Shown: piece after piece, positions 16,594-47,627 of the stretch
Numbering within the stretch: position 1 is the stretch's first letter
Layout: every line of letters begins with the position of its first letter
Assembly: GCF_964204865.1 (NCBI RefSeq)
Contig: NC_135251.1
Coordinates: forward strand, 19,716,001-19,780,000
Direction of reading: 5' to 3'
DNA length: 64,000 nucleotides
Origin: Styela clava
Taxonomy: Eukaryota > Chordata > Ascidiacea > Stolidobranchia > Styelidae
Notes under the pieces: generated by a model
The model's database searches: none
What the model saw: the letters and a program-made list of their open reading frames with translations, nothing else
Told to the model about the DNA's origin: nothing
Made by a program: the position numbers and the translations under genes

Positions 16594-18450
16594 ATGGAGA
16601 AGGATCCAGCAACGGAACCGATTAAAAAAGGAGAAGTATTGAGAGAAATCAAGATTGGAACAACTGCCGATCTGGACAAATTTGCGACAAGTGAGATTGA
16701 GTATGACACCTAAAAATTAATTGGGCAGGAAAAATAATGCATCAAGTGCATCATTATTAATTCTCTAATGTGATCAATCAGCGACGAACGAAAAAAATGA
16801 TAGTGCAACACATTTGATCATAAATGAGGAAATTGTTTTATTGCGGGGTCATCTGCATTCACTCAGAATTTTAGAATATTTTTTAAAGAATGAAAAGCGA
16901 GTACCAAGAAAATTCACAAGCGGACAGGGTAATAGTCAAATATTAGCTCATGCAATGTTGTCATGTAAGTCAAGCAATACCTGGTGATACCGTTCAACTC
17001 AAGCAAGAGGAGCAGCGTCGAATATTTTCACAAAGTATCGATTCAAATGGCTTATTTGGGCAAATCCTTCCGATTAGATAAAAAATGTCCGATGCAAATA
17101 TGATTCCTTTGCGATTATAATGTTTGCAAAGGCTGATTGTGTCGAGTGAAAACGACCTAGGTGAAATTGTTTGGAAGAGTTTCTTGGCTACAGGATCATT
17201 GGTATACGACGAAATTAACATAAAAGTCTCAGTTGATATGCATAAAAATTCTGGCATAACGTTGACATCGGGTATATTATCAGGTAAGATTTTTTATTGG
17301 AATGCTAAATGTTATAGAAAAAATATAAATATGCTACAACAATATTTTTATTATACCGGAAAATCTAGAAATCATGACAGGGAATAGAATTTTATTACAT
17401 AGATATAGTTGAACACGATTTGTAGTTATTTTTTTTAACTTGGATTGTACTATTGGACACGAAATGCACATGGGGTAGTGGATATTATATTTATTTTTCA
17501 TGTTCTTGTTCTTTTTCTTGTTGTTATGAAAAATTGCTCATTACCATTGCTTTGAAATTATCAGTGGTTAAAGATTGTATTTTTCGCTCGATGGCTATTA
17601 CTTTTATTTAATTTAAAGATTTCTGTGGGCTTTATGGTATTCGTTTTTAGTGTGCGATGACCTCATTAGAATTAAAAATTGTGCACCTTGTGGCGGTTTC
17701 GCGTTAGCGTCCACCATCGTTGCGTGCTGGTGATCACTCGAAGTCCAGAAAACGACTTCGTTTTGTCCATCGTGTACATATATTTGAGCGTCCCTCTCTT
17801 GTTTTATCATAGATAGATATAATTTTGTAATATTAAAATTTTGAAAAAAAATAAAAAGATTAAGTAACACCGCTGAAAGCAAAAAAAAAGCATTCATTTG
17901 TATATATCCATGCACACAGAGGCAGAGAAATGGAATTGTCAGCTTTGCTCTACTACAATAATAAAATGTTTTCTGTTGACGATAAAACTGGAATAGCGTT
18001 CGGAACAAAGGAAGGCAAAGCTATTCCCAGATCTATTTTATAAGATGGCGATGGGAATCAAGTTAATGGTAACATAACACTTTATCGATAGGTGTGTGCA
18101 TGGATTCATTGTTTTGGGTAATTTAATATTGCATTCCAAGCATTCCGCCTCTATTAATCAATTTTGCACTTTTTAGGTACCTCAAAATTTCTTTTCTATT
18201 CTTTTTTCATCCTTTTGCCTTTCTTTTTTCATATTAATATATATTTGAAATTTTTTTATTTTATTTTCTCGTTGATTGTCATCATCATCAACATATTCAT
18301 CAGAGGAATTCGTTTATAGTATTCAAAGGCGAATGAATGACGGTTAAAAACGGAAAGATGTACGTAGGTGGTCATGGTCGTGAGGTTGCCGGACAAGATG
18401 GAACCATACGAGATAAAAATTATATGTGGGTCAAAATTATCAATGAAGAC
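16594..18450 (+). pseudogene. Truncated CANT1-like apyrase pseudogene
   Basis: Paralogue of the preceding gene. Exon 1 (16594-16690 or, with a GTATGA donor, to 16700) encodes ADLDKFAT; exon 2 (about 17132-17283) encodes EIVWKSFLATGSLVYDEI; exon 3 (17920-18068) encodes GREMELSALLYY and SVDDKTG; exon 4 (18320-18450) encodes GGHGREVAGQDG and YMWVKI. Lesions: TAA at 18041-18043 in exon 3 (in place of Ser before DGDG), TGA at 18334-18336 (Trp of GEWL lost), a phase mismatch between exons 2 and 3, and no counterpart of exons 5-7. A TIR transposon lies about 200 bp downstream. The 3' part was copied later into the second tandem unit with the same stop codons. Confidence 0.88.
17580..17770. repeat. 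Dispersed repeat in the CANT1 pseudogene intron
   Basis: The stretch with 'tgtgcgatga' and 'gcaccttgtgg' resembles diverged copies at about 54470-54640 and 56565-56740. The family is not identified; it is part of the repeat set shared between this locus and the 52-57 kb region. Confidence 0.5.
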
Positions 18451-18652
18451 GTAAGTAACTACTAAACATCCATCACAAACTGAAGTGTAACAATAGCTCA
18501 TTACTGATAACCACGATCACGCTTCCGTATTCCATTTTTCAAGTTATCGAATACTGTCAACTCTTTCAGAGTTGCCAACTTGTATGTGAAACTTTTTTTC
18601 CAGATTCACATCTATTTCAGAATTTTCGTATATGATTTAGTTGTTTATATAT

Positions 18653-19398
18653 CGTCACGCTAATAACCGAATTGCGTTGCGCACCTGTCTGGTAACTCAG
18701 ATTTTATTTTAAGAATTCCAAAACCCATAAAAATGGAGATTTAGTATGACATGCACATTTGTGCAATTGTTTCGTCATAATGAATTATCATTGTTACAGC
18801 AGGACTATTGTGTCGTCACAAAAGCAAAATAGCTTCGACGAAGTATTTTCGAGTTTTTGCATCTCGGATTCTACCTTAGCGCGTATTAATTTGAATTTTT
18901 ACTACAGTACGTGCACTTGCGATATTCACCGTCCGAGTCAAATTCACCTTGGTTGGCTTTTATATTGAGTGCATTGCTGTTTAATTCTTTTTATTTAATC
19001 TTATTCTTATTTCGGTGGGTGTGCAGAACGTGTTATATTGATGAAATATATATATTTAAACATAAAAAATAAAGTAATATTTTGCGGATTAGACATTGTA
19101 GATAATGAGAATTACATTCGGTTTTGGAATGTTTAGTTTTCAGGACTGGTGCATATAGTAAAGTTGCAAAATTGCGCATGTTCCCAAGTCATAGACACAT
19201 TTCTGCCTAAGTCACAGTGCGCCATTATGACGTCACTTAACTGCGTTACTCAAATTAACTTAAATCCGGCTACAATCAAAAAATTGAACCATGGCAAATT
19301 ATTGACTCTCCATGGCATAACAATATCATTAGGAAGTTTTTTACGTTTTTCTCAAAACTGCTAAAAATGACTTACGCAATTCGATTATTAGCGTGACA
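18653..19398. mobile_element. TIR DNA transposon, non-autonomous, about 745 bp
   Basis: The left end 'gtcacgctaataaccgaatt' (from 18654) is the complement of the right end, which finishes ...'ttattagcgtgac' at 19397. Full or partial relatives lie at 33238-33981 (unit 2 copy), 52497-53292, 53892-54171 (right half) and 55479-56268. No transposase frame is visible. Flanking ATAT on both sides suggests a short 4-5 bp target duplication, but AT-richness makes this uncertain. Confidence 0.8.
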
Positions 19399-19399
19399 A

Positions 19400-22299
19400 T
19401 ATGCTTCGTTATGCTCAATAATTTAGAACTATTAACTTTTAACTATTGGATTAATTTATGAACTTGAACTTTACATTAATGAAATCAGGAGAATAACAGT
19501 CATAGTCCCCAGATTTAATCTGATATACCACCACATATCCGACTATGAAAGTTTAAACATTCCTAAGTTCGGATTATTTGGTTTTGGTCATGATTAATAA
19601 AAGAGCAAGGATCTTTATGTCACGAGGATTTTACTCTCTCACCTTCAAATACAGGTGAAAGTACAGTAAAATATTGAGTTGAATAATAAGAACTGCAATA
19701 CGATAGGAATATGATAAGAAGTTGATGGTACTGAATTAATTCGACAATTACAGAATCTATAAAACATTTAACAGATAGACAGTTAAAAAATTGTAATAAT
19801 TGTTTTCCAGAGGTTACGACTTCATCCTGGCATTTGATATGTTAAATAAAATGACTATTTACTGTCGTTAAGGAACGTTAGTTGCCAATCACGATTGGTG
19901 CCGCATTATAAAGACATTGTAATCATATCACCTCTGCACAGCAGAAAACATCTCATTTATGTACATAGCACTTCAGACAAACCTCCTGATTGGCGGTCGA
20001 TGCATATTTGCCAAAAATTCGAAAAGTGGCATCTTGTCTATAGGCATACGAATGACCCCGCGTCTACGTTCTTAGTGGACTCTCCTCAGCTCGTACATAC
20101 GCCAAAGAATCCTCGAAACATTCATTTTTGTGTTTTCAATTTCATGTGATGTTGCTATAATCTACACCATATTCATTTTTTGGTTCTTCATACCCAAAAT
20201 TGGGCGCTCCCGTGGGATGTGCACCAGGATGGCAAACACCTGAACACAGTATGTGTACCCGGTTAGGGTTAGGCCATAATTTTATTCCAATTTTCCTTAT
20301 TTTAGTTCTATTACGAGTTCGGGAACTAGCCAAGTGACTCACGTAATATTTGTACCTGAAATTATAGCCTAACCCTAACCGGTGTCCGCCATCTTTTTTT
20401 CACATACTACGGGAGTACCCAAAATTGTTCAGTTCGGCGAAAAAAAAAATAAAAGAAGAGTAATTATGAAATGCAAGAAATTCAATGAGGGTACTGGGAA
20501 AATGGAACACAATTGACACAGTCCAATCAAGTAGAAACTCTCACCAAACCCTAAAGAACCCCCAAAACTCATACAACCCCAAATCAGAGGAAATTAAAAA
20601 ATCTAAAGATCGTTTATTTCTGCCTCCACTACAGAAATTGTTCCCAATGAACAAGAATTTTCAAACGAGAGATATTGGAGATATTTAAAATTCGATATAT
20701 ATGTCTAAGTGAAGTAGGCTAATCGTATGTGCCTCGGTCTGCTGCGTTTACAGTTGTTGTCATATACATATCTTTGTCAATTGATATCATTACAAACTGC
20801 AATGTCGTCTCTTCTGTTTTTACGAAAATTCGATATTTTCTTTACTTGACAGATTGTCATCTTAGAAAGGCTGGTTTTCGTACATTTACAAACGGTCAAT
20901 TGTTTTTACCTATGGTGATGGAAATTAGGTACTAGCACTCGATTTGTTAACGTATATATGTGCGTATTGCGTAGTTAAATTTAAGGAACTAATATTGTTT
21001 TTCACTTGACTATCTGATCAAATAACAAAGACTGGTGTTTGCTTACAGTACACAATAAATAACCCTATCTCGCCATGAGAAATATCATAAATACATTAAT
21101 CATTACATATTTAGAAACTAGATTTCATTGCAATTAACAGGTAGTCACGGAAGATCAGATCTGGTAATCGTACATCTTAAGCTTTTTAAGCATCAACTAT
21201 ATATAATAAGTGTATTGTATTTTATACTAAAATATCTCTCGTACAATTAGTTTCGTACGCGTTGTTCAAATAAAGGTTCCTGTTACTACGATGCGAACAA
21301 ATAAAGGCCCCTGCCATTCACGAAGAAAAATGCGGAACTCTAGTAGATTATGAATACGCAATAACGGAACTTAAGCTTACTCAAAACAATAAGTGTATTA
21401 GGGGGCTTGAACTGATTTCCAGGATTACTTTTACGAAGATGTAGCCTCAGCGCTTGAATCAGTTTTATATAAATGGAAGTAAGAACATCGGTAAACGATA
21501 TATTTGAAGTTCTTAAAAGAACCGGCGTAACGATATAAAATTCAATCGATTCAATATATATTTGTGGCATAGCGGTAGGTTATCGTAGGAATCCAATTCG
21601 TATTTGACAAGCTTGAAGTAGAACTCTTAAAGTAGAGAGTCTGCCTTGCAATTAACATAGATAACGTGAAACATCTCCTAACACCAACTGGATATATCTC
21701 GTTCTACAGATAGGCCAGACATACGGGTGTACAACCTTCAATACAGAAGGGTCAGATACAAACAACCGTAGGCCGTTCTTTTATTTAACACAGACTTTCA
21801 TAGGCAAGAACATAAATTGTACTCGGGTATAGATAATCGCATCGCAAAGGGGTTGTGTAATTACTCGCAAGTATCATATTAAACTAAATTAAAAAATATG
21901 TTTTGCACACTAATTAAAATTGCCACTTCTTCGCGGACTGCACAATTTTTTCCTGTGGACCGCATTTTTGGCCCATCGGGCTAGATAATACCAATATTGT
22001 TGTAAGTTCAACTTTTTGGGCAATTACATAATTTATATGCAAAACTTGGACTTTATTTGAATGTCTCAATATATTTGAAATTTTAATATACCAGTTATAA
22101 AAATAGTGTTCATCAACTTTGTTTGTGTGCGACTGTCTGCGATGATCATATGTCACTTTGGAAATTTTTTTTGTCTAATGTCATCGCCTTTTTGTTTTAA
22201 CAGATTGCACATGAAGTGGTCCAGCAGTAGCATTAAAATGTATTTGTGTAAATTCTCGACTATTCGTGTTAATCATATTATTTGATGTCATAAGATACG
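19400..22299. other. Intergenic region upstream of TNF gene A1
   Basis: No exon assigned. It holds the MITE at 20207-20415 and, at about 21925-21985, a GC-rich 'cgcggactgcac...gtggaccgca' stretch resembling an hAT remnant. The proximal part is the likely promoter. A strong 3' splice site (pyrimidine tract then TTTTAACAG ending at 22203) lies 97 bases before the start codon, implying a leader intron or spliced-leader addition. Confidence 0.5.
20207..20415. mobile_element. Palindromic MITE (same family as 15637-15864)
   Basis: Contains 'ggttagggttaggccataat' and its inverted partner 'cctaaccctaaccggtgtcc', with 'ctcccg...cgggag' outer ends. The unit 2 copy is at 34791-34999. Confidence 0.75.
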
Positions 22300-24314
22300 A
22301 TGGATATACGGCAGGGCCTTATGAAAAAAGCATTTTTTCTGTACAGTGTGGCTCTTGCTTTATTGATTATGTATGCTGTACTCGATTACCAATGGGAATT
22401 GGAGTCCATTGAGAAAACTATCGGTAAGACTCAAATATTTTTTATAACTATTTTTAAATAAAAAATGTTGCTACTAGAAAAAATTGCAGTTGGACAATCT
22501 TTCCACCAATACTTTCAGAATAAATCTTATGTCTGAGCGACTATTAATCGTATATCTTTGTTGTTTCGTGGCAATGATAGGAAATAAAACTGTTCTAGTC
22601 ACCAAACCCAAGTTCAGAATAATGTCGTATATTGAGTTTTTCTTCGTGCTTTTGATTAACATGTCACGTCGCTAAATTATAATACTTATTCAATAAATTT
22701 GAAGTTGTTACTTTTTTGTTGCTCAATATTCTGGAAGACTTGAAAAATATCAATCATAAATGACTAGATAAAATTGAAATTAATAAATTCTTGCATGTTT
22801 AAAGTCAAATGGTGATTTTGAATCAGGCTTGGGACTCACAGTTTTAAGTTTGGAAAGCCTTTGGAATTTTTTTATATGGCAATTTTGATTTTTTTCTAAT
22901 GAAAGTTAACTTATAAGAAAACTTATTTCGAGGGTGGGGTTTTTGTGAACAAGTTCAATTTTTTTTGAAACATATAACTTTTCATCTATAGTTTGACCAT
23001 CGGATCATTAATTGAATCATACTATATTCTTTCAGATGAGTTGCGATTACATCTACAAAAACTATCACGTAGACGAGATGCCAGCTTTAATTATGATAAA
23101 GACATTTATAAAGTAGGTTTTCTGAATAACATTTACATCTTCACGCAATTCAAATTATGATTTGTTTTTATTCTAAACTTCAAATCTAATACTGTACTAA
23201 AATATATTACTTGATTAAAGTAAGTGTATTTGAAATACCCATTATAAATGTACGAAAATCATTTTACAAAATTCCACGCCTTCTGTTTGTCAAAACTAAT
23301 TGCACAAGTATTATTTATTGCCTATAATCTCAGATACTTGGACAGCAAGTTCACGAGGCAAAAAGATGCGATTTGCAAAGAGCTTCAATGAGATGTGAGC
23401 ACAATGATTTTTTTATTTACATCAAGAGAAGAATCAATTTATCTTTTTCTGTCATAATTGGAATATTTAACTGTATTTTTATATTTTTTAATCTCACACT
23501 TTGTACGTAGTGGGGCAAGCTATTCGGAAAAAGAAAATCAAAAACCCGTTAAAAATTTGGGAAGAAGTTGCTCGTCCATCCATATTGTTGCATGCAGAGA
23601 AAATGGAAGCTTCGGATGAAAATTCAGGTGGAAATATAAATGATCCTGGTCATTATTCGTATGCTATAATTCTCACATTTTCTTGTTCATCTTTTATGTT
23701 TAATAAATGTGCCTTTCTTATGCTAGAATCAAAAGAGAGTCGCAGAATCACTGGGTGGAGACCTGTAATAGAGCAATGTTGTTCAGGAATACATCCAGTC
23801 CTTCGTAACAGAAGTAGGGTCGAAATAATGATGTCAGGAAACTACTACGTTTTCAGCCAATTGCCATTATTTCGTCATGATGGAATTAAAAGTAATACGT
23901 ATTTCTATTTCCATTTAAATGAACATAATTACTTTACAAGTTTTTTTGAGATAATCTATTTAATAATTTTATTTATTACTGTGTAACTTTTGTAAACAAT
24001 TTGGAATTATTATACTAAAAACGAATTAAAAAAATCATGTGATAATTTTGCGGACGTGTAATTTGCATTCAGATTCCGAAGTTTATCGACACGTTGTGGA
24101 AATGAAAGAGTACGGAGACTCAGAAGTTTTTCAACTTATGATTAACTCATTCCAATTTTCGAGCAAACCTGCAGAAGTATCTTATCAAGCAGGCGTGTTT
24201 TATTTGGATGCGGGTAGTATTCTACAAGTATCTATGACCAGTCCTTTACTCAACCAACATATTGAGAAATTTGGAGTCCGTGACAGGATGGAGTTTGGAC
24301 TATATCTACTTTGA
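22300..24314 (+). CDS. TNF superfamily ligand, gene A copy 1
   Basis: Type II membrane cytokine of the TNF family, expected to act as a trimer on TNF-receptor-like proteins. Exons: 22300-22423, 23036-23112, 23334-23394, 23511-23627, 23727-23891, 24073-24314; all phases agree, giving 261 residues. Residues 11-27 form the membrane anchor (core FFLYSVALALLIMYAV), followed by a stalk with basic runs (SRRRD, RKKK; a possible processing site) and a C-terminal TNF homology domain: RPSILLH (strand A), GWRPV, GNYYVFSQLPLF, VSYQAGVFYLDAGS and final strand MEFGLYLL. Two adjacent cysteines (EQCCSG) lie in the THD. AATAAA at 24401-24406. No lesion was seen. The receptor and true orthologue cannot be named from sequence alone. 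Confidence 0.9.
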
Positions 24315-24419
24315 GTGAAACTATGTTTCTATCAATAGAAATGATTATATTATAGAATGCGTAATACATAATGAGCAAGAATATTAAATGAATGACAACG
24401 AATAAACAGGCCATAAATT

Positions 24420-25340
24420 GAGTAAAACAAGACTGAGGAAATATGAAAAACTCTTATGTTACTGTGATATGAGTGTTGTTATGAAACAAGTGCTTGACGG
24501 TTAAGTATTGTCGGACGACATTTTGATCGAGATTGTCTTTATGAATAGGTTGTCCTGTTTTCGACTACTTTACTGAAACCAAGCAAAAAGGAGGACAATA
24601 TTCTATTTATCTCTTAGTTGCAACTTTTTAATCATCATTATCTAAATTTATTTTCCATAGAATACGTTGGTTTGGTGTATCTCCATAATTATATATATAT
24701 ATTAATTTACTTATATGGTAACATTTACTGCATACAGCTCTTATTTGTTTTATTTTTTCATTACAACTACAACAACTTTTACTTATGCCGTTTGAATGTA
24801 ATAAAATCTTCTTGAATAATCTCGCAATTTTGTTTTACGTAATTTTATTACTTGTTTTATAGTAGATATTTGATGCATCAGAGCGTTTAGAACTGAGCTG
24901 ATTTTGTCATAAACGCCAATGTCCATTTTTGGTATCAAGTGTTTTTACTTTTTATTTTTGCTTAGAATTTATATTTGCATATTTGAGCAGTTTTATGCCA
25001 ATAGCTCGTTGCGTTGATAATATTCAAGTATTTTTGCTAAAAATGTGATTTTGATTAGGATTCGAACATCTTGCTTTTGCAACAACATTTACCACGTATC
25101 ACTCATTATTCAGTGTGTGCAAATTCAAAGCAGACAAGCGCGTCATCCATGTATCATTTACTTCAATTTCTGAAATTTCCACTATGTTTCTTTTATATTT
25201 GGATGATAAACAAATTTTATTTGGAGGAAGTATATTTCATAAATTCATTTGATTTTTGAATCTTTGAAGATTCTCAGTGATTACTGATTAGTAATTTCTC
25301 GCAGTTTAATAAATGTTTTAGGCCAGCACGTTATCACTGA
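24420..25340. other. Intergenic region between A1 and B1
   Basis: No gene seen. At 25225-25235 the sequence joins two stretches that in unit 2 are separated by about 490 bp (39815-40308); the missing piece holds the first coding exon of gene B. Confidence 0.6.
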
Positions 25341-25347
25341 CTGTTAA

Positions 25348-27460
25348 ATGTTCAATGATCGTGACCATATCAACCAATTTACTTTTGTTTTAACTTTACA
25401 GAATTTGCTGCAATTTCGAGCCTTGTGCAACGGTGAAAGACGTGCAAATGTATCGCTACTTTTCAAGGCATTCTGCATGTTTACTTTGGCAAATATTTTA
25501 CTAGTGGTATACTTTACGGTGGATCACCAGTGGGAGCAGAAAAAACTCGATAATGAAATAGGTATAAAATTGCAAGTCACCAACAAAATATATTCAGAGC
25601 ATAATAAATTTTAATTACTTTACTAATCCCCCGTAGGTGCCATTCGACGAATGCTGCCTAATTTGAAATTTCCACATAATTATCAGACATGTAATGAAGA
25701 AGGAAGCTTGTGTTCTTTAAATCGGGTATGTCAGAAGTGTCAGAATTATCTAATTTATTTATATCAATATATATTTATATGAATTTTACGAATTTATTTT
25801 TTTTGTAGCAAATTATAAACGCAAAGAAAAGATTCGAAACTTGTAATGAGAAGCTGTCTTCGCTCAAAGGTAAACTAAAGCAATTAACGCATATTTCATC
25901 GCAGAATATAAATTCCTAAATCAAAATCACTAATATATTTAAAATACATAAGTCTTTCGACAGGTGCTGATTTAATATGATTGGAGTACGATAAACAAAT
26001 CTATATTACGCCAATACCAGTGGTCTTAATAACTCTCTCAGCTTTCTTGAGACAATATCTCATTAAGGATACAAGTAAAAAAAACATTCCAATTATGCCC
26101 ATTTTTTTTGGCATAAAAAACTATATATACGGTGTTACTTTGGTATGCGATCTCATTTGCGTTAGTGTGATCTCAGGTGGTTCAGTATCAAACCAAATAT
26201 TACAGAGTTAGGAATAGAAACTGAATTCTCTGAGAATGTCTTTATGAGATTGAGCGCATACATCTGCTGCTGCTTTGGTCCACGATCGATATTACGTTAA
26301 AGCAAATGAGGGCATGTACCTAAGTAGTGTATGACGCGAGATCGAATGTCAAAGTGGCATCTATGAAACTTTACAGTCATGAAAAGCATCACACAAGAGA
26401 AAGAAGAGACTTTTGATATTTGGAATTCGATTCAAAGACCATTTATACAACTCGAATTGGGTGGAAATCACTCTCCTGCAAGAAAAATGGACAAAAAGCG
26501 TAAATATGAAAAATATACTGCGTATTTGATTTTATAAATTTCATGAATGAAAATGAAAATTTTATTAATTCTTGTATTTTATTTTTTATTGTTTTATTTT
26601 TCTGTGCCAGAACATTCACCATATTATTTACGAGGGTGGGAGTCAAATCAACCAGATATATGTGTGAATACCAGTCCTTATCTGGTACATGAGCAAAGAA
26701 TAAAAATTAAAAAAGATGGTTATTACTACGTCTACAGTCAGGTCACGTTTGAATGTTCCAGACATAATTCAGGTGAGGTATTCACATGTGTAAAGAACTT
26801 GGGAATTAGTTAAATAATCTCTATTGTAAATTTCTTGCAATAACTCTAAGCAACAAAAATGATACTCATTTTAAACATAGGTCGTTGTTAAACTTGTATC
26901 AAGCACGAAACAGCAAAAATGCATTTTTAAGTTCTACCTAAAAATTTCTCGTATCTTTTCAACCGATATTTACTGTCGTCACGCTAAACCAAATAAAAGG
27001 AAGTCTTTCACGCATAGCAATTTTATGGGTTGCCGGATTTATTTATAAACAATATAGATTTACACAAACAATTGTTTTGTGATCTTCAACGCAATTAAAT
27101 CGCTTCCGAACACTTTTCATGTTATAAATTGAATTGCGAAAAAGACATAAACATGACCTTTATTCTAAGTAAGAATATGTCCTCATAAACTTAAACAAAC
27201 CAAATGACCTTTCAGGCGCCGCACAAATTCACACTCACACGGTAGAGTTACTGGAACGTAAGCCACAAATATTGATGGTCAGTGTCTATCAGCTATGTGG
27301 ATATGGAGAGCAGGGAAAATCGAAAGTGTCCTATCAGGGCGGAATCTTCCATCTGACCAAACGAAATTATCTTTCTGTCAAAATTGGAAAACCAGATGCA
27401 ACAAAAGTACATCATCATTATGAAGATCACAAAGCATTTTTTGGTGCATACCTAATTTAG
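25348..27460 (+). CDS. TNF superfamily ligand, gene B copy 1 (5' exon lost)
   Basis: Homologous to B2 (40279-42548). Exons: 25402-25561, 25637-25725, 25809-25869, 26377-26499, 26611-26772, 27216-27460, with consistent phases. Anchor: AFCMFTLANILLVVYF; stalk with cysteines (YQTCNEEGSLCSLN, RFETCNEKL); THD: QRPFIQLELGG, LRGWESNQPDIC, DGYYYVYSQVTFEC, VSYQGGIFHLTKRNY, final AFFGAYLI. The 10-residue first exon present in B2 is absent because of a deletion. The frame is open upstream of the exon-2 acceptor to an ATG at 25348, so transcription from a new leader could still give a ligand with a different N-terminus. The start is therefore uncertain, and the gene may be silent. Confidence 0.75.
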
Positions 27461-27479
27461 AACTTTGTGATAACGATGT

Positions 27480-29420: not shown

Positions 29421-29429
29421 GATAATGAA

Positions 29430-32429: not shown

Positions 32430-32514
32430 AAAATTTTGAAAAAAAATAAAAAGATAAAGTAACACCGCTGAAAGCGAAAAAATAGCATTCATTTGTATAT
32501 ATCCATGCACACAG

Positions 32515-33981: not shown

Positions 33982-36883
33982 AATATGCTTCGTTAAGCTA
34001 AATAATTTAGAACTATTAACTTTTAACTATTGGATTAATTTATGAACTTGAACTTTACATTAATGAAATCAGGAGAATAACAGTCATAGTCCCCAGATTT
34101 AATCTGATATACCACCACATATCCGACTATGAAAGTTTAAACATTCCTAAGTTCGGATTATTTGGTTTTGGTCATGATTAATAAAAGAGCAAGGATCTTT
34201 ATGTCACGAGGATTTTACTCTCTCACCTTCAAATACAGGTGAAAGTACAGTAAAATATTGAGTTGAATAATGAGAACTGCAATACGATAGGAATATGATA
34301 AGAAGTTGATGGTACTGAATTAATTCGACAATTACAGAATCTATAAAACATTTAACAAATAGACAGTTAAAAAATTGTAATAATTGTTTTCCAGAGGTTA
34401 CGACTTCATCCTGGCATTTGATATGTTAAATAAAATGACTATTTACTGTCGTTAAGGAACGTTAGTTGCCAATCACGATTGGTGCCGCATTATAAAGACA
34501 TTGTAATCATATCACCTCTGCACAGCAGAAAACATCTCATTTATGTACATAGCACTTCAGACAAACCTCCTGATTGGCGGTCGATGCATATTTGCCAAAA
34601 ATTCGAAAAGTGGCATCTTGTCTATAGGCATACGAATGACCCCGCGTCTACGTTCTTAGTGGACTCTCCTCAGCTCGTACATACGCCAAAGAATCCTCGA
34701 AACATTCATTTTTGTGTTTTCAATTTCATGTGATGTTGCTATAATCTACACCATATTCATTTTTTGGTTCTTCATACCCAAAATTGGGCGCTCCCGTGGG
34801 ATGTGCACCAGGATGGCAAACACCTGAACACAGTATGTGTACCCGGTTAGGGTTAGGCCATAATTTTATTCCAATTTTCCTTATTTTAGTTCTATTACGA
34901 GTTCGGGAACTAGCCAAGTGACTCACGTAATATTTGTACCTGAAATTATAGCCTAACCCTAACCGGTGTCCGCCATCTTTTTTTCACATACTACGGGAGT
35001 ACCCAAAATTGTTCAGTTCGGCGAAAAAAAAAATAAAAGAAGAGTAATTATGAAATGCAAGAAATTCAATGAGGGTACTGGGAAAATGGAACACAATTGA
35101 CACAGTCCAATCAAGTAGAAACTCTCACCAAACCCTAAAGAACCCCCAAAACTCATACAACCCCAAATCAGAGGAAATTAAAAAATCTAAAGATCGTTTA
35201 TTTCTGCCTCCACTACAGAAATTGTTCCCAATGAACAAGAATTTTCAAACGAGAGATATTGGAGATATTTAAAATTCGATATATATGTCTAAGTGAAGTA
35301 GGCTAATCGTATGTGCCTCGGTCTGCTGCGTTTACAGTTGTTGTCATATACATATCTTTGTCAATTGATATCATTACAAACTGCAATGTCGTCTCTTCTG
35401 TTTTTACGAAAATTCGATATTTTCTTTACTTGACAGATTGTCATCTTAGAAAGGCTGGTTTTCGTACATTTACAAACGGTCAATTGTTTTTACCTATGGT
35501 GATGGAAATTAGGTACTAGCACTCGATTTGTTAACGTATATATGTGCGTATTGCGTAGTTAAATTTAAGGAACTAATATTGTTTTTCACTTGACTATCTG
35601 ATCAAATAACAAAGACTGGTGTTTGCTTACAGTACACAATAAATAACCCTATCTCGCCATGAGAAATATCATAAATACATTAATCATTACATATTTAGAA
35701 ACTAGATTTCATTGCAATTAACAGGTAGTCACGGAAGATCAGATCTGGTAATCGTACATCTTAAGCTTTTTAAGCATCAACTATATATAATAAGTGTATT
35801 GTATTTTATACTAAAATATCTCTCGTACAATTAGTTTCGTACGCGTTGTTCAAATAAAGGTTCCTGTTACTACGATGCGAACAAATAAAGGCCCCTGCCA
35901 TTCACGAAGAAAAATGCGGAACTCTAGTAGATTATGAATACGCAATAACGGAACTTAAGCTTACTCAAAACAATAAGTGTATTAGGGGGCTTGAACTGAT
36001 TTTCAGGATTACTTTTACGAAGATGTAGCCTCAGCGCTTGAATCAGTTTTATATAAATGGAAGTAAGAACATCGGTAAACGATATATTTGAAGTTCTTAA
36101 AAGAACCGGCGTAACGATATAAAATTCAATCGATTCAATATATATTTGTGGCATAGCGGTAGGTTATCGTAGGAATCCAATTCGTATTTGACAAGCTTGA
36201 AGTAGAACTCTTAAAGTAGAGAGTCTGCCTTGCAATTAACATAGATAACGTGAAACATCTCCTAACACCAACTGGATATATCTCGTTCTACAGATAGGCC
36301 AGACATACGGGTGTACAACCTTCAATACAGAAGGGTCAGATACAAACAACCGTAGGCCGTTCTTTTATTTAACACAGACTTTCATAGGCAAGAACATAAA
36401 TTGTACTCGGGTATAGATAATCGCATCGCAAAGGGGTTGTGTAATTACTCGCAAGTATCATATTAAACTAAATTAAAAAATATGTTTTGCACACTAATTA
36501 AAATTGCCACTTCTTCGCGGACTGCACAATTTTTTCCTGTGGACCGCATTTTTGGCCCATCGGGCTAGATAATACCAATATTGTTGTAAGTTCAACTTTT
36601 TGGGCAATTACATAATTTATATGCAAAACTTGGACTTTATTTGAATGTCTCAATATATTTGAAATTTTAATATACCAGTTATAAAAATAGTGTTCATCAA
36701 CTTTGTTTGTGTGCGACTGTCTGCGATGATCATATGTCACTTTGGAAATTTTTTTTGTCTAATGTCATCGCCTTTTTGTTTTAACAGATTGCACATGAAG
36801 TGGTCCAGCAGTAGCATTAAAATGTATTTGTGTAAATTCTCGACTATTTGTGTTAATCATATTATTTGATGTCATAAGATACG
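33982..36883. other. Intergenic region upstream of TNF gene A2
   Basis: Near-identical copy of 19400-22299, including the MITE and the strong 3' splice site (AACAG) about 97 bases before the A2 start codon, so A2 inherited the A1 proximal regulatory DNA. Confidence 0.55.
34791..34999. mobile_element. Palindromic MITE, unit 2 copy
   Basis: Copy of 20207-20415, with the telomere-like TTAGGGTTAGG / CCTAACCCTAACC inverted blocks. Confidence 0.75.
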
Positions 36884-38904
36884 ATGGATATACGGCAGGG
36901 CCTTATGAAAAAAGCATTTTTTCTGTACAGTGTGGCTCTTGCTTTATTGATTATGTATGCTGTACTCGATTACCAATGGGAATTGGAGTCCATTGAGAAA
37001 ACTATCGGTAAGACTCAAATATTTTTTATAACTATTTTTAAATAAAAAATGTTGCTACTAGAAAAAATTGCAGTTGGACAATCTTTCCACCAATACTTTC
37101 AGAATAAATCTTATGTCTGAGCGACTATTAATCGTATATCTTTGTTGTTTCGTGGCAATGATAGGAAATAAAACTGTTCTAGTCACCAAACCCAAGTTCA
37201 GAATAATGTCGTATATTGAGTTTTTCTTCGTGCTTTTGATTAACATGTCACGTCGCTAAATTATAATACTTATTCAATAAATTTGAAGTTGTTACTTTTT
37301 TGTTGCTCAATATTCTGGAAGACTTGAAAAATATCAATCATAAATGACTAGATGAAATTGAAATTAATAAATTCTTGCATGTTTAAAGTCAAATGGTGAT
37401 TTTGAATCAGGCTTGGGACTCACAGTTTTAAGTTTGGAAAGCCTTTGGAATTTTTTTATATGGCAATTTTGATCTTTTTCTAATGAAAGTTGACTTATAA
37501 GAAAACTTATTTCGAGGGTGGGGTTTTTGTGAACAAGTTCAATTTTTTTTGAAACATATAACTTTTCATCTATAGTTTGACCATCGGATCATTAATTGAA
37601 TCATACTATATTCTTTCAGATGAGTTGCGATTACATCTACAAAAACTATCACGTAGACGAGATGCCAGCTTTAATTATGATAAAGACATTTATAAAGTAG
37701 GTTTTCTGAATAACATTTACATCTTCACGCATTTTAGAAATTCAAATTATGATTTGTTTTTATTCTAAACTTCAAATCTAATACTGTACTAAAATATATT
37801 ACTTGATTAAAGTAAGTGTATTTGAAACACCCATTATAAATGTACGAAAATCATTTTACAAAATTCCACGCCTTCTGTTTGTCAAAACTAATTGCACAAG
37901 TATTATTTATTGCCTATAATCTCAGATACTTGGACAGCAAGTTCACGAGGCAAAAAGATGCGATTTGCAAAGAGCTTCATTGAGATGTGAGCACAATGAT
38001 TTTTTTATTTACATCAAGAGAAGAATCAATTTATCTTTTCTGTCATAATTGGAATATTTAACTGTATTTTTATGTTTTTTAATCTCACACTTTGTACGTA
38101 GTGGGGCAAGCTATTCGGAAAAAGAAAATCAAAAACCCGTTAAAAATTTGGGAAGAAGTTGCTCGTCCATCCATATTGTTGCATGCAGAGAAAATGGAAG
38201 CTTCGGATGAAAATTCAGGTGGAAATATAAATGATCCTGGTCATTATTCGTATGCTATAATTCTCACATTTTCTTGTTCATTTTTTATGTTTAATAAGTG
38301 TGCCTTACTTTTGTTAGAATCAAAAGAGAGTCGCAGAATCACTGGGTGGAGACCTGTAATAGAGCAATGTTGTTCAGGAATACATCCAGTCTTTCGTAAC
38401 AGAAGTAGGGTCGAAATAATGATGTCAGGAAACTACTACGTTTTCAGCCAATTGCCATTGTTTCGTCATGATGGAATTAAAAGTAATACGTATTTCTATT
38501 TCCATTTAAATGAATATAATTATATTACAAGTTTTTTTGAGATAATCTATTTAATATTTTTATTTATTACTGTGTAACTTTTGTAAACAATTTGGAATTA
38601 TTATACTAAAACGAATTAAAAAAATCATGTGATAATTTTGCGGACGTGTAATTTGCATTCAGATTCCGAAGTTTATCGACACGTTGTGGAAATGAAAGAG
38701 TACGGAGACTCAGAAGTTTTTCAACTTATGATTAACTCATTCCAATTTTCGAGCAAACCTGTAGAAGTATCCTATCAAGCAGGCGTGTTTTATTTGGATG
38801 CGGGTAGTATTCTACAAGTATCTATGACCAGTCCTTCACTCAACCAACATATTGAGAAACTTGGAGTCCGTGACAGGATGGAGTTTGGACTATATCTACT
38901 TTGA
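36884..38904 (+). CDS. TNF superfamily ligand, gene A copy 2
   Basis: Exons: 36884-37007, 37620-37696, 37926-37986, 38102-38218, 38318-38482, 38663-38904; exon lengths are identical to A1, giving 261 residues. A handful of substitutions are visible, for example Met to Leu at the end of exon 3 (ASMR to SSLR context), Leu to Phe before the RNRSR motif, Ala to Val before VSYQAG, Leu to Ser in TSPSL and Phe to Leu in EKLGVRD. All THD landmarks (RPSILLH, GNYYVFSQLPLF, FYLDAG, MEFGLYLL) are kept and no lesion is seen, so both copies may be expressed. AATAAA at 38991-38996. Upstream sequence is duplicated from A1, implying similar regulation. Confidence 0.9.
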
Positions 38905-38996
38905 ATGAAGCTATGTTTCTATCAATAGAACTGATTATATTATAGAATGCGTAATACATAAAGAGCAAGAATATTAAACAAATGGCAACGAATAAA

Positions 38997-40278
38997 CAGG
39001 CCATAAATTGAGTAAAACAAGACTGAGGAAATATGAAAAACTCTTATGTTACTGTGCTATGAGTGTTGTTATGAAACAAGTGCTTGGCGGTTAAGTATTG
39101 TCGGACGACATTTTGATCGAGAATGTCTTTATGAATAGGTTGTCCTGTTTTCGACTACTTTACTGAAACCAAGCAAAAAGGAGGACGATATTCTGTTTAT
39201 TCCTTAGTTGCAACTTTTTAATCATCATTATCTGAATTTATTTTCCATAGAATACGTTGGTTTGGTGTATCTCCATAAATATATATATATATTAACTTAC
39301 TTATATGGTAACATTTACTGCATACAGCTCCTATTTGTTTTATTGTTTCATTGCAACTATACTTTTGCTTATGCCGTTTGATGTAACAAAAATTTCTTGA
39401 ATAATCTCGCAATTTTGTTTTACGTAATTTTCTTACTTGTTTTATAGTAGATATTTGATGCATCAGAGCGTTTAGAACTGAACTGATTTTGTCATAAACG
39501 CCAATGTCCATTTTTGGTATCAAGTGTTTTTACTTTTTATTTTTGTTTAGAATTTATATTTGCATATTTGAGCAGTTTTATGCCAATAGCTCGTTGCGTT
39601 GATAATATTCAATTATTTTTGCTAAAAATGTGATTTTGATTAGGATTCGAACATTTTGCTTTTGCAACAACATTAACCACGTATCACTCATTATTCAGTG
39701 TGTGCAAATTCAAAGCCGACAAGCGCGTCATCCATGTATCATTTACTTCAATTTCTGAAATTTTCCACTATGTTTCTTTTATATTTGGATGATAAACAAA
39801 TTTTATTTGGAGGAAGTATTACAATTTTATATTCTTATCTCAAAATGAGATTGCTTACATATAACATATTGTGTTCCGCTTCAGAGTCAAATACGTAAGC
39901 GATTGAAATAGAGTAAAGAAATCCTATCAACAGTTCTGCTACATTGATTTGCAGAACTTCTCATCGCAAATGACTGTAGCTTTAAACAGGCGCAAATTTG
40001 AACTATATTGTTTATGTAGTTTTGATTGACTTTTTGGTGAAGGAATTTTCTAGGATTGAGATGTGAACTTGCTTCTGCATTATAATACAATTCTACAACA
40101 ATTGTTTTTGAATGTTTGTCCGATAATTTATCTGCTTGATCTTTTACAAAAGTTAAAACTTTTTGGCAAATATGTTGATACATTAACATTGATACAATTT
40201 TTTTTTCAGGTAAATGAATTAATAGTTGTTAATGAATTTTAATATTATATGATTGCCTTAACATGAAAAGAGAACAAA
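38997..40278. other. Region between A2 and B2, including DNA lost from unit 1
   Basis: Contains about 490 bp (39816-40308) absent from unit 1. Just before B2 a pyrimidine run and CAG (ending 40209) form an unpaired 3' splice site 69 bases ahead of the start codon. A 100-codon open frame on the minus strand (39887-40189) inside this segment resembles nothing I know and is treated as chance. Confidence 0.5.
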
Positions 40279-42548
40279 ATGGAATCAAGTCATCTTCAAA
40301 CTGAAACGGTTAGTATATTTCATAAATTCATTTGATTTTTGAATCTTTAAAGATTCTCAGTGATTACTGGTTAGTAATTTCTCGCAGTTAAATAAATGTT
40401 TTAGGCCAGCACGTTATCACTGACTGTTAAATGTGCAATGATCGTGACCATATCAACCAATTTACTTTTGTTTTAACTTTACAGAATTTGCTGCAATTTC
40501 GAGACTTGTGCAACGGTGAAAGACGTGCAAATGTATCGCTACTTTTCAAGGCATTCTGCATGTTTACTTTGGCAAATATTTTACTAGTGGTATACTTTAC
40601 GGTGGATCATCAGTGGGAGCAGAAAAAACTCGATAATGAAATAAGTATAAAATTGCATGTCACCAACAAAATATATTCAGAACATAATAAATTTTAATTA
40701 CTTTACTAATCTCCCGTAGGTGCCATTCGACGAATGCTGCCTAATTTGAAATTTCCACATAATTATCAGACATGTAATGAAGAAGGAAGCTTGTGTTCTT
40801 TAAATCGGGTATGTCAGAAGTGTCAGAATTATCTAATTTATTTATATCAATATATATTTATATGAATTTTACGAATTTATTTCTATTGTAGCAAATTATA
40901 AACGCAAAGAAAAGATTCGAAACTTGTGATGAGAAGCTGTCTTCGCTGAAAGGTAAACTAAAGCAACTAACGCATATTTTGTCGCAGAATATAAATTCCT
41001 AAATCAAAATCACTAATATATTTAAAATACATAAGTCTTTCGACAGGTGCTGATTTTATATAATTGGAGTACAATAAACAGATTTATATTACGCCAATAC
41101 CAGTGGTCTTAATAACTCTCTCAGCTTTCTTGAGACAATATCTCATTAAGGATACGGGTAAAAAAAACATTCCAATTATGCCCAATTTTTTTTTGTCATA
41201 AAAAACTATATATACGGTGTTACTTTGGTATGCGATCTCATTTGCGTTTGTGTGATCTCAGGTGTTCAGTATCAAACCAAATATTACAGAGTTACGAATA
41301 GAAACTGAATTCTGTGAGAATGTCTTTATGAGATTAAGCGCATACAAGTAATTGGTGTTGCTTTGGTCCACGATCGAGATTACGTTAAAGCAAGTGAGGG
41401 CATGTACCGAAGTAGTGTATGACGCTGAGATCGAATGTTAAAGTGGCATCTATGAAACTTTACAGTCATGAAAAGCATCACACAAGAGAAAGAAGAGACT
41501 TTTGATATTTGGAATTCGATTCAAAGACCATTTATACAACTCGAATTGGGTGGAAATCACTCTCCTGCAGGAAAAATGGACAAAAAGCGTAAATATGAAA
41601 AATATACTGCGTATTTGATTTTATAAATTTTATAAATGAAAATGAAAATTTTATTAATTCTTGTATTTTATTTTTTATTTTTTATTTTTCTCTGCCAGAA
41701 CATTCACCATATTATTTACGAGGGTGGGAGTCAAATCAACCAGATATATGTGTGAATACCAGTCCTTATCTGGTACATGAGCAAAGAATAAAAATTAAAA
41801 AAGATGGTTATTACTACGTCTACAGTCAGGTCACGTTTGAATGTTCCAGACATAATTCAGGTGAGGTATTCACATGTGTAAAAAACTTGGGAATTAGTTA
41901 AATAATCTCTATTGTAAATTTCTTGCAATAACTCTAAGCAACAAAAATGATACTCATTTTAAACATAGGTCGTTGTTAAACTTGTATCAAGCACGAAACA
42001 GCAAAAATGCATTTTTAAGTTCTACCTAAAAATTTCTCGTATCTTTTCAACCGATATTTACTGTCGTCACGCTAAACCAAATAAAAGGAAGTCTTTCACG
42101 CATAGCAATTTTATGGGTTGCCGGATTTATTTATAAACAATATAGATTTACACAAACAATTGTTTTGTGATCTTCAACGCAATTAAATCGCTTCCGAACA
42201 CTTTTCATGTTATAAATTGAATTGCGAAAAAGACATAAACATGACCTTTATTCTAAGTAAGAATATGTCCTCATAAACTTAAACAAACCAAATGACCTTT
42301 CAGGCGCCGCACAAATTCACACTCACACGGTAGAGTTACTGGAACGTAAGCCACAAATATTGATGGTCAGTGTCTATCAGCTATGTGGATATGGAGAGCA
42401 GGGAAAATCGAAAGTGTCCTATCAGGGCGGAATCTTCCATCTGACCAAACGAAATTATCTTTCTGTCAAAATTGGAAAACCAGATGCAACAAAAGTACAT
42501 CATCATTATGAAGATCACAAAGCATTTTTTGGTGCATACCTAATTTAG
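40279..42548 (+). CDS. TNF superfamily ligand, gene B copy 2 (complete)
   Basis: Exons: 40279-40308, 40485-40644, 40720-40808, 40892-40952, 41466-41588, 41699-41860, 42304-42548; all phases agree, giving 289 residues. Exon 1 encodes MESSHLQTET and splices (GTTAGT donor) in frame to NLLQFRDLCNGE, a cytoplasmic tail preceding the anchor (AFCMFTLANILLVVYF). A cysteine-containing stalk follows, then the THD: QRPFIQLELGG, DGYYYVYSQVTFEC, VSYQGGIFHLTK, AFFGAYLI. As a type II ligand it should be presented or shed as a trimer. It differs from B1 by the retained first exon and a few substitutions (such as Gly to Ser at the exon 2/3 border and Asn to Asp in TCDEKL). Exon 5 was found only by splice and domain logic; it is too short to stand out as an open frame. 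Confidence 0.88.
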
Positions 42549-42567
42549 AACTTTGTGATAACGATGT

Positions 42568-45335
42568 TTTATAAATTTTCACTATTAGTGCTTTGATGAC
42601 AAATTTCTATGGATTATTTTAATAATTTTTCGATTTTCACATCGTATGGTTTTGTACATATTTTCAAAACAATGGCTATTTAGTCCTAGCATCTTCTGTA
42701 GAGATGCTTAATATTTTATTCAGCAGTTGAATGAATGAATGAAAACAATTTGTACAACATAAAATTAACTCAACTTTTATCTCTCGATGTACACGTGACT
42801 TCATTTGAATACCTATATCACAAATCCAGAGCAACAGAAAACAAAAAAAAACGTTTATAGATATTTCGCAAGACGACCTCGCGACATACTACTCAACTGA
42901 TATTGAATTTGCATTTAGTTTGCGCTATTCTCTGCGTCTGTTACTGGATATTTATATAGTGTCAAATACGTGATGCTTATATATCTACATAGCTTAATAT
43001 GAAGATGAAAATGAGGTTGCTTTTTAACAAAAAAAACATTGGAAATTCATCTTATTTAAGAACAGTTCCTTGCGGAGGACTATTCCCACTTCATTTTCTC
43101 AAAATTCGATCATTAACGTATATGAAAAAGCGTATAAATAAAATATGAAGAAAAAACATCAGGCAAATGAAACGTACTTATGTATATAAATAGAACATTG
43201 GGAAAACTGACTTATCGGAGTTTTCGTGATATAGAATAGATAAATAAAATTCTTAGATATGAAACATCTGATAAGATTTTCAAAAAAGTAAATTGATAAG
43301 ATGTACCGAACACATGACATATAAGATTCCTTAGACAATATCAACAATAAATATGAACCATTTAAACTTAGCATCATGTAAACAAGATATGACTAGACAC
43401 ATGAAAGGATGCCAACGTATATGTCGATTTTTATAACAATAAATATGTTGTTTATTGTAACGATAAAATTTGAAGTAAACATCTGATGAATACGATGTAC
43501 TTGTTTGTAACTTTTAAGAGCGAACCAAAATCATACGTCTGGCAAAATGTGTTGACAAAAGTTAGTTCATATAGCTATTTAAGCTGTTTATCTTTTACGT
43601 TAGTTTGAGTTGATTCGTTGGTTTAGATCAGGGTGGTCCAAAGTTGTCGTCTCAAGGGGCCACAAAATTATTTTTGCCCTGTTCGCGGGCCACAATAATA
43701 CAAAGAATAGTTAAACAGTGCAATGCAGAATGAAGATTTTCATTGTGCATACACATTTATAAGTATATCTCACTTAACAAGCTAAAACACACAAAAGTCT
43801 TTCTATATCTTCATTCAATATTTCAAACTCTTCGTAATTTTTATCGATCATTTTCTTTTGATGAAATAACGCAAGCGTTGCGGGTTGTTTTCCTCGATCT
43901 GTGTTAAATGAATAAAAATCCAAATTATTCGCGTTCGAGTTTGCGTTGAGTTTGCCTTAATTACTATTCATAACATTAGGATTGGCAATATGTCAATCTA
44001 TTCATAACATTAGGATTGGCAATATGTCAATAAAACCTTTTTTAATTCAAAGAGTGGTATCCATGGGTAAATGTTTACGGGTGCAAAATTCCATGGCTGC
44101 AGATGTCCATAGATGCGAATATCCGTGAGTGCAAATGTCCATGGGTGCAAATGTAAGCGGGTGCAATTGTACAATAGTGTAAATGTACCCGGTTGCAAAA
44201 GTAGGTGGATGCAAAAGTACGCGGGTGCAAGTATACGCGGGAGCTAATGTATACGGGTTCAAATGTGCCCGGGTCACAATGTTCAAGGGTGAAAATGTCC
44301 GCGGGTGCAAATGTCCGTGGGTTCAAATGTCTATGGGTACAAATGTCCGTGGGTGCAAATGTACACGGGTTCAAATGTTCATGGGTGCAAATGTCGTGCA
44401 ATTTCAATGTGGGTGCAAACATCTGCGTGTGCAAATGTATGGGGGCAATTGTTCATAGGTTCAAATGTCCATGGGTGCATAAGTGTGCAAGTGCAATTGT
44501 CTGGATGCAAATTACGAGTGCAAATGTACGTGGGTACAAACACCCGTATTGAAATATATTGTTAGGCCATAACATTAATATTTAGTTTTAATATATAGCC
44601 AATCTAGGCTAATATAATCCGCATTCGATTTTTAATTTTATAAAAACAATAGCAGCATTCAAGTTGGTGCAGTTTCTTTGAATGTGGGACATGTTGAGAT
44701 AAGTTGTCAGGCACAACCTTAACTTGTTTTATCAAGGCTCAAAGTGGTACTTGTTCACAGATCACATTTGCAACAAGATAGTGTAAAACTGTAAGTTGAT
44801 AAGCCCAAGGTCAGTGATCTAGGTCAGCACAGATTTGGTATACGTTGTTTCAATAGAAGGTAATTGTTACAGGTTGTACGTGTAGGCAGGTAGCAGTACA
44901 TAATAGTAAAAACATATTTATGCATTACCCAATACAAAGCAAAAATTATGAGGAATCAAACCGAGAAAATCCTGCAATTAGACAAATTTATTATTTGTCT
45001 CTATAAGTTAGGTATTAAGTCAAGTAAAGCATGTCGTATAATGTTGCGTGAGTAGTAACATACTAGTGGATATACTGTACAAATATAGATATGGAATTTG
45101 ACATGGTCTTCCAAAATGCGGAACCTGATACCGAATTTGATACAAAGAAAACCCTATCTTAACGCACAGATAAATCCCCGCACCAAACCTATAAAACGAG
45201 AGATACACAGGTAAGAAAAGCCGCACACGTTATGGTCTGTTGTGCACAAGTAAGTAAATATATTCTACACCCAGCAATACAAGGACATAGGTGAATGCGC
45301 GGAGTAAGGGGTCGTACTTACTCAAAAAGCAAGTT
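42568..45335. other. Intergenic region between B2 and C2
   Basis: Copy of 27480-30234. It contains the hAT-like terminus (from 43629), the minisatellite (44055-44542) and a small local tandem duplication near 43967-44031 ('attcataacattaggattgg' twice) that unit 1 lacks. No gene seen. Confidence 0.5.
44055..44542. repeat. 16-bp minisatellite, unit 2 copy
   Basis: Same array as 28935-29420, with a few base changes and a 3-base loss near its start; the unit number has changed little since duplication. Confidence 0.92.
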
Positions 45336-47627
45336 ATGGCTAACTTAGAATCATCATGCTCGTCAACTGTAATCATTCGACGTGTTGCAGTTGTGATTTC
45401 GGTGTCAATTTGTGCATCGTCTGTTTTAATATGTCAATACTTCATTCGCTCCGAATATATGAATCACCTACTGCAACAGTCCAAAAGTTTACGCTTTCAA
45501 ATGGAATGCTTGAAAGGACCTGAGCCTGAAACGAGACATGGCTGTTGGAAAAAGTGAGTTATATGCGTTACGCAACGGAAGTTCTAGTAAGATCATTAAT
45601 TAGGATATTTTAAATAAATTGACCAATGTTTACTTTCTATTTCGTTTTCTTTTTAAGAGAGAAATGATCACGAGGTCCGATAACTAATCGGTCTATACAC
45701 TGATTTTGTCGAGTTCGAGAGGTAAAGGTTAACCGTGGCTTGGGCAGCCAGGCATGTCGGAATAAACATAGTGTTCACACGATTCAAAATACAACAACAA
45801 AATTTGGCTACAGTATTGAATCTCATTAAAGAATTAAAAAAATCTTTAGCTCCGTAGTAACTACTTCCAAACGGTCCACTAAAAACTTGAAATCGATTGA
45901 CCATCAAAAAAATCGAAATCGAGTTACGACTTTTCTTTCACCAAAAAGTCGCCCAACAAAAGATTCATATGGCCACTTTGTGTCCTACTGCAAAAGTCAG
46001 AAATGAGAATCTTCACTAGATTATTGATGGAAGCGAACTGCACGATGTGTGCACAGCCAACCCCGTGCTAGAACCATTACTATAAACGAGAGATGCAATG
46101 TTTTCAGCTGTCTTTGTATATTTGTTTGAAATTTTTGTAGATATCAAATAAAGTCATCGGTTCAAAAACAAAATAACTTGACATCTGAGTGCTTACAGGA
46201 TGAAAAAATAAGAAGTTTTATTAACAAGGTTAGTCGCCAATATATATATATATACCTTTTTAATTTCCATGACATATTGCATTTACGGAATATATATGAT
46301 AATAGGTTGTAAACAAAATCATTGCGAACACAGATATATTTTGTTATTTTATAACGGTAAATTTATGGAGCATACGATAAAAGTAAAACATGTAAAGAAA
46401 CCACTTTATTTAAATGAAAAATAAATCGATTTTCCTTTTGCAGAAGATAGACAAAAGTCTTGAGAGCGAAAAGCAACACCTAGAAAATGAGGGTAAGCGT
46501 CAATAACATCAACTTTCAGTCAATTTTATATTTCTTTTTACCATCTTGATAATTTTATAGTTGGGGAAATTGGGAAGAAAAAGCTCGATAAAATAGTTGA
46601 ACGTTGCTATGGTGATGACAAAAGATTCGTTGTTCACTGGATTGCACGTGACAATGCAAGTGTCGGAATGAAAGGTATAGTATTAAATTTTAGTTTGCTT
46701 AATATGGAATTAAACATCAGTGCATATTTAAATGAATTTATTTGTTTAGCTCATACTTGGTTCCCAGTAACGGAATTATCAAACGACAGATCAATATACA
46801 CTGTATCTCCCGGATACGAAGATTCATTTGTCAATGGAGCTGTGAAAATACCAAAAAACGGTCTTTATATGATTTATGGTAAAATAACCGCAAAATGTGA
46901 AGATTCAGATGAAAAACTAAAAAGGTCAAAATTTTAAATATTATTCAACCAGGTAATTTGTTCATTCTTTACTTCTAGCTTATTCGGCAGCCACTCAAAA
47001 TAAAAATAAATTACGTGGAAAATGTAAATTGCTTTTTTAAATATTTTATTATCGGTATTCTTTGCATATGCGGATTACGGAACACCGGGCGTGTATATTA
47101 TCAAGAGGTCAGGAGATTGATTTGACCCTGAATATTCACGTGGTTTAGCTTATCGGTATTTTGAACATTGACAAACATTTTTGCCAATTTCAATCTCAGG
47201 ATTTTGATATCTAACCTAGCATATAGATAGATTATATATTATAGATGCACAATCGTATTGAATATTCACATTTCCACATGAAGAATCTAGATATTTTATA
47301 TATTTGACAATGAGCGGTTCTGGCAAATACACTGGAAACAGGTATAACCACAGATGTATAAGCTTTTTACAATCCACTGACAGGATTCATTTTGAAATTC
47401 GAATGAGGATATACGACAACAGCGAGAAAACCCTTCTGAGTGAAACACGAACAGGAGTTTGTAGGATTCCCGGTGATCTTCTAACAATCTTTCAGCAAGG
47501 CTTGTTGAGACTGGCAAAGGGAAATCTTATCTACATCAGAGTCAAATTCCCAGAGAATGTCAAATTATCGGATGAAGACTCTTGGTTCAAAAACAATATT
47601 GGAGTTTCGTGGGTTGGCCGAAGTTGA
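45336..47627 (+). CDS. TNF superfamily ligand, gene C copy 2 (complete)
   Basis: Exons: 45336-45553, 46141-46228, 46444-46492, 46561-46674, 46768-46924, 47291-47627; all phases agree, giving 320 residues. Residues about 14-33 form the anchor (VAVVISVSICASSVLICQYF); a long charged stalk follows (KYQIKSSVQKQNN, KIDKSLESEKQHLENE, likely coiled), then the THD: RFVVHWIARD (strand A), NGAVKIPKNGLYMIYGKI, TDRIHFEIRMRIYDNS, LLRLAKGNLIYIRV, final NNIGVSWVGRS. The last intron uses a weak donor (AG/GTCAAA) and the acceptor AATCTAG; it is the least certain junction, though its phases fit exactly. AATAAA at 47790-47795. The tandem junction equivalent (47466-47468) lies inside the last exon, but here the exon is whole. 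Confidence 0.87.

Follow-up and report, generated by a model that had tools for sequence, protein, structure and literature searches.

Head-to-tail duplication of a three-gene TNF ligand cluster, joined without long homology and with one gene copy cut at the seam

A block of approximately 15 kb carrying three TNF ligand genes (A, B and C) was found twice, head to tail, in the window analysed here, a 64-kb stretch at positions 19716001–19780000 of contig C2 in an assembly of 376.6 Mb and 379 contigs. Self-BLAST, global alignment and a direct reading of the seam placed unit 1 at 17832–32429 and unit 2 at 32427–47468, both on the plus strand, and confirmed that the duplication of the cluster described in an earlier sequence-only reading is real and had been read correctly to the base. 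We are fairly confident that the best explanation for this arrangement is one non-homologous join, after which gene conversion or recombination between haplotypes acted between the units.

The comparison of the window with itself, which the sequence-only reading had proposed as a check, revealed five consecutive direct matches, in order, linking the two halves of 17832–47468: 17824–25233 with 32419–39819 (98.2% identity), 25229–28909 with 40312–43997 (98.6%), 28876–30460 with 43998–45561 (96.0%), 30498–32038 with 45561–47109 (96.5%) and 32076–32429 with 47116–47468 (91.6%). In the global alignment of both units, 14,221 of 14,472 aligned bases were identical, leaving 251 mismatches, together with 31 listed gaps, the largest of 497 bases. 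The latter corresponds to a stretch present only in unit 2 (39816–40312, plus strand). It is bordered on each side by AGTAT, of which unit 1 has a single copy, and may represent either an inserted sequence with its target-site duplication or a loss from unit 1.

On the left side of the seam, unit 1 tracks unit 2 up to 32429/47468, and on its right side unit 2 tracks unit 1 from 32427/17832. The bases ATT are present at the left end (17832–17834), at the seam (32427–32429, plus strand) and at the right end (47466–47468). The claim that the breakpoint can be read to the base, with the last exon of gene C joined through ATT to intron sequence of a CANT1 remnant, was upheld by this reading. In particular, the left breakpoint lies between the two apyrase/CANT1-like exon remnants (17151–17285 and 17921–18070) that make up, as exon-like matches, a remnant at 17151–18070 on the plus strand; the second of these stretches is repeated at 32519–32665. 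The right breakpoint falls within the final exon of gene C; the copy of this exon in unit 2 continues to a stop at 47627. A CANT1/apyrase gene is located left of the cluster (10950–14572, plus strand; four exon frames match PF06079, one below the cut-off), and another CANT1-like gene lies approximately 7–9 kb left of the window (about −9446 to −6754 relative to its start). The neighborhood hence holds two CANT1/apyrase-like genes in tandem plus the remnant.

Ascidians are often highly heterozygous, and two units of this kind could also stem from a false duplication in the assembly, in which the block of one haplotype, ending in gene C, had been joined to that of the other, starting in the CANT1 intron. 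The uneven divergence of 0–9% between the units has the look of two alleles of one outbred animal, and other tandem duplications nearby could have one common technical cause. However, the seam is gapless and has three shared bases, where scaffolded haplotigs would usually leave a gap or an overlap; no N occurs in 184 kb of sequence spanning the locus; and C1, the left copy of gene C, has no 3′ end, while no other C tail was matched by a probe over the right end. This 1-kb probe matched itself and, with its first 269 bases only, C1, stopping at the seam. Likewise, a probe over the seam matched the seam and its two parents, and a 1.5-kb probe comprising gene B and its 3′ side matched both units plus one 38-base stretch elsewhere. 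A 1.4-kb probe over the left end matched its own location, the beginning of unit 2 and 43 further listed places confined to a dispersed repeat (1,985 first-look candidates, 40 scored). Neither a third copy of the unit, nor a further C tail, nor a single-unit haplotig was found by these assembly DNA searches, which skip simple and very common sequence and can miss such matches. Compared with the haplotype (‘heterotype’) false duplications described in passages of PMC8081667, the locus is alike in its two near-identical adjacent blocks and their mosaic divergence, and differs in having no gap, no long overlap and no further C tail detected by the right-end probe. On this evidence, joined haplotypes appear an unlikely source of the two units.

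With regard to the gene content of the duplicated block, gene A was modelled at 22300–24314 (A1, from exons and splice sites) and 36884–38904 (A2, 261 aa), and gene B at 25348–27460 (B1, from exon models) and 40431–42548 (B2, 297 aa), all on the plus strand. All four are open and comprise six exons, with GT-AG introns in phases 1, 0, 1, 1, 1 in both units. The spliced products of A2, B2 and C2 were scored against the TNF homology domain (PF00229, curated cut-off of 23 bits), and all three exceeded this value (28.7 bits for A2, 56.0 bits for B2), which assigns them to the TNF ligand superfamily. The best PDB matches of B2 were TRAIL, FasL and LIGHT, with E-values of 8e-5 and weaker. In the conceptual translation of exon 1 of each of the three genes, a hydrophobic stretch near the N-terminus, as a type II membrane protein would have, was recognized by eye only. 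A1 and A2 differ at seven codons, five of them residue-changing, and the same numbers were obtained for B1 and B2; exons 5 and 6 of B, which encode the TNF domain, are identical between the units.

Gene C presents a different picture. C2 (45336–47627, plus strand) was modelled with six exons and 309 aa, with intron phases 2, 0, 1, 1, 2; its PF00229 score of 27.8 bits depends on an exon 5 donor and an exon 6 acceptor that were chosen by hand and are uncertain. Because AT stands in both C copies at the position of the exon 5 donor GT of gene B, C2 needs a different donor and may perhaps not be a sound gene. C1 (30235–32429, plus strand), a probable pseudogene, retains exons 1–5 and, of the modelled exon 6, 127 bases from its 5′ end. 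Beyond the seam, the 52 codons with which C2 ends give way in C1 to 10 codons of CANT1-intron sequence followed by a stop. C1 does not encode a complete TNF homology domain and has probably lost its function, since roughly one third of this domain falls within the 52 residues absent from C1. In addition, an extra A at approximately 31786 in exon 5 (A6 to A7) shifts the frame of C1; the affected site is an A homopolymer, and a sequencing error could account for it. A second candidate frameshift, a two-base gap at 31610, was rejected, as the gene model places it in an intron, and only one frameshift is claimed.

Exons 2–4 of C1 are identical to those of C2. Over exons 1–5 up to the frameshift, pN/pS was 0.31 (5 synonymous and 6 non-synonymous changes), a value that does not suggest long free decay, and in the shared part of exon 6 it was 1.25 (6 changes). 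The corresponding values were 0.65 for A and 0.64 for B, with 7 differing codons each; those of all three genes rest on too few changes to claim selection. The sequence-only reading had counted an increase from three to six TNF-like loci. This is right inasmuch as six loci carry TNF exons, which is also what would favor six working genes; at most five can be complete, with C1 cut at the seam and frameshifted. Six working genes are highly improbable given that C1 is frameshifted and missing roughly a third of its TNF domain, which refutes a standard full-length C1 protein, and six complete genes were rejected on the same grounds. As judged from the gene models, a cluster of three would have become one of no more than five complete genes and a broken one.

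As for how the units were joined, the ATT microhomology had been taken to point to end-joining or template switching. This argument did not hold: when 200,000 pairs of positions were drawn at random from this AT-rich window, 7.1% of them shared at least three bases, and for this reason ATT singles out no joining pathway. The match extends imperfectly to the left of the seam (9 of 12 bases equal), which gives mild support to a guided join; the resulting junction score of 7 was as high in 0.76% of random pairs (P 0.008), under a scoring scheme that was picked after the seam had been seen. The absence of direct flanking repeats provides a stronger argument than ATT against repeat-mediated crossing over. 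Between the sequences up to 3 kb from the ancestral ends, no long direct homology was found, the longest direct matches being one of 34 bases at 82% and one of 16 bases exact, both away from the ends. The earlier case against repeat-mediated unequal crossing over thereby gained support, on grounds other than those first given.

In favor of a duplication produced by such crossing over (NAHR) are a high-copy dispersed repeat (17451–17807, with 43 of the 45 matches listed) which stops 25 bases left of the left breakpoint, and stretches related to it at 50287–50323 and 50526–50605. However, these relatives near the right end are inverted and at least 2.8 kb from the right breakpoint, so that the repeat offers no direct-repeat substrate. 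Moreover, this type of event would leave a repeat at the seam, and the seam carries none; the direct homologous repeats that it requires are seen neither at the seam nor at the two ends. We give repeat-mediated crossing over next to no credence, and it was rejected given the lack of long direct homology near the ends and of a repeat at the seam.

What the locus does display, namely direct adjacent units, few shared bases at the seam and no long homology at the ancestral ends, is what characterizes non-homologous joining. In the mechanism that we favor, a single event would have connected the final exon of gene C with a site approximately 15 kb leftward on the unduplicated map, in the intron of the CANT1 remnant, and its product would have been a head-to-tail copy of the block with its three TNF ligand genes. 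With no long homology at the join, either end-joining or template switching during replication would be likelier than crossing over between repeats. Genes A and B were copied whole and the left copy of C was severed at the seam, so that A and B are now each present twice and C can be complete in one copy only. Afterwards, gene conversion would have re-homogenised parts of the units, or recombination between haplotypes would have reassorted them. The locus resembles other tandem duplications joined without long homology in its few seam bases, direct head-to-tail units and mosaic identity, and it differs from them in that its three shared bases are so near chance (7%) that the pathway cannot be named.

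The earlier description of the units as near-identical is accurate as an average and fails locally, with 0 to 37 mismatches (0 to 9.25%) in aligned windows of 400 bases. A two-state model, with rates set by hand, divided the unit into five segments. Three of them are divergent, at 2.36% (17832–19416), 3.03% (23691–26604) and 3.28% (28823–32429); the last contains the 9.25% window, which is mostly intron 5 of gene C. Between these lie two near-identical tracts on the plus strand, the first of approximately 4.3 kb (19417–23690; 0.23%, 10 mismatches in 4,273 aligned bases), with two small gaps near its right end, and the second of approximately 2.2 kb (26605–28822; 0.05%, 1 mismatch in 2,218 aligned bases), with no gap and an identical run of 2,027 bases. 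The index of dispersion of mismatches was 8.5, compared with at most 2.0 in 5,000 shuffles, and the longest identical run in the same number of shuffles reached at most 724 bases. Identity is hence clustered beyond chance, as expected from gene conversion and equally from allelic recombination. Either conversion between units or recombination between haplotypes would explain this mosaic; a uniform clock would not.

Because divergence is so uneven along the unit, mean identity cannot date the duplication; dating by this means was rejected in view of the alternation of 2.4–3.3% segments and near-identical tracts, and the claim that the duplication is recent was not borne out. The sequence-only reading was correct in its main lines and overstated gene number, age and pathway. 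Near-identical tracts of 2–4 kb are long for gene conversion. In a variant of the best explanation, rather than an exclusive rival to it, the event would have joined two different haplotypes, the units would never have been identical, and the near-identical tracts would mark where the haplotypes happened to be alike, with no conversion needed. The same mosaic pattern would result, and the divergent segments are at a level plausible for the allelic diversity of ascidians; we regard this variant as a tentative possibility. It is mainly because two alleles of one animal would give the same mosaic that our confidence in the best explanation, although fairly high, is held short of certainty.

Several repeated elements were observed in and around the units. 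An interspersed repeat of approximately 0.8 kb, 84–93% identical between copies and in both orientations, is present at 18678–19402, 33262–33986, 52497–53297 and 55479–56268, and also at several places left of the window. A dispersed element of approximately 0.2 kb, also in both orientations and 85–87% identical (15653–15867, 20207–20383, 34791–34967 and 57852–58066), resembles a MITE, although this is a guess from its appearance. A minisatellite with a 16-base unit differs in length between the two units, with approximately 21 copies at 28938–29275 and 27 at 44060–44479. On the minus strand, a duplicated frame (50957–51208 and 59021–59266; 94% over 69 aa) resembles, on visual inspection, the C-terminus of an ABCG transporter, with no match in a Pfam search of this frame, and frames matching ABC2_membrane were found at 60860–62839. 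Searches of the window with Rfam at gathering thresholds and with a tRNA scan yielded no matches and no genes, respectively.

Three other adjacent tandem duplications were found between −66 and −30 kb of the window start, within the 184 kb read around the locus, with matched pieces 96.5–99.5% identical. They comprise one of 2.43 kb (about −66336 to −61478; 16 mismatches in 2,432 aligned bases), one of approximately 5 kb (about −55356 to −45185; 70 mismatches in 4,943 aligned bases and 286 gap columns) and one of 1.22 kb (about −33341 to −30898; 6 mismatches in 1,223 aligned bases). At their seams, the copies of the 2.43-kb and 1.22-kb duplications overlap by 5 and 2 bases, and the matched stretches of the approximately 5-kb one are 3 bases apart. 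Adjacent tandem duplications are thus locally common within the 184 kb sampled. A further TNF-like gene, with three exon matches and B-like domain exons, lies approximately 78–79 kb left of the window start (contig C2, 19636637–19638425), and a TNF-like stretch running into two stops lies at about −71.9 kb (contig C2, 19644124–19644294). Across the assembly, the TNF family search returned 13 matches, 8 of them over the cut-off, on contigs C1, C2, C4, C8 and C18.

The host animal is almost certainly a tunicate, on account of a cellulose synthase/GH6 pair on contig C9. At E ≤ 0.001, PF13632 and PF01341 (GH6) each match the genome once, at places 2.1 kb apart on this contig and on the same strand, and these two matches putatively form one gene that encodes a cellulose synthase with a C-terminal GH6-like domain. 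On its own, the GH6-matching open frame scores 42.4 bits, and three other open frames of this locus gave nothing of note in Pfam. A cellulose synthase ending in a GH6-like domain has, according to PMC7464555, been described in tunicates but in no other organisms. A search of the assembly for COX1 returned no match.

For the TNF superfamily (TNFSF) of tunicates, which is reported to change quickly, Marin 2026 (PMC12843592) lists 168 genes in 24 species, with up to 14 per species, in groups TNFSF-T1 to T6. According to the same paper, most new genes arise by tandem duplication, with species-specific duplicates, and segmental duplications in Ciona savignyi were taken by the authors as very recent; the word ‘pseudogene’ does not occur in the main text. 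The present locus is alike in having TNFSF genes in tandem and duplicates that arose by tandem duplication, and compared with what that paper describes it stands apart by duplicating three genes as one block, with a seam resolved to the base and one copy truncated. It is a well-resolved case of known tandem TNFSF growth and ordinary in kind.

A far bolder picture would combine a TNF cluster segregating in copy number in a living tunicate population, conversion that holds the receptor-binding domain of B identical while A and C diverge, and a cut-off C1 expressed as a membrane-anchored decoy; we consider this combination very unlikely, although it is compatible with the identity between units of both TNF-domain exons of B and of exons 2–4 of C. 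The mosaic itself is a warning against dating such duplications by average identity, and locus counting alone gives six genes, of which no more than five are complete. The locus provides a base-level picture of one growth step in a cytokine family, in which a single step can add whole genes (A and B) and, together with them, sever the copy at the seam (C1).
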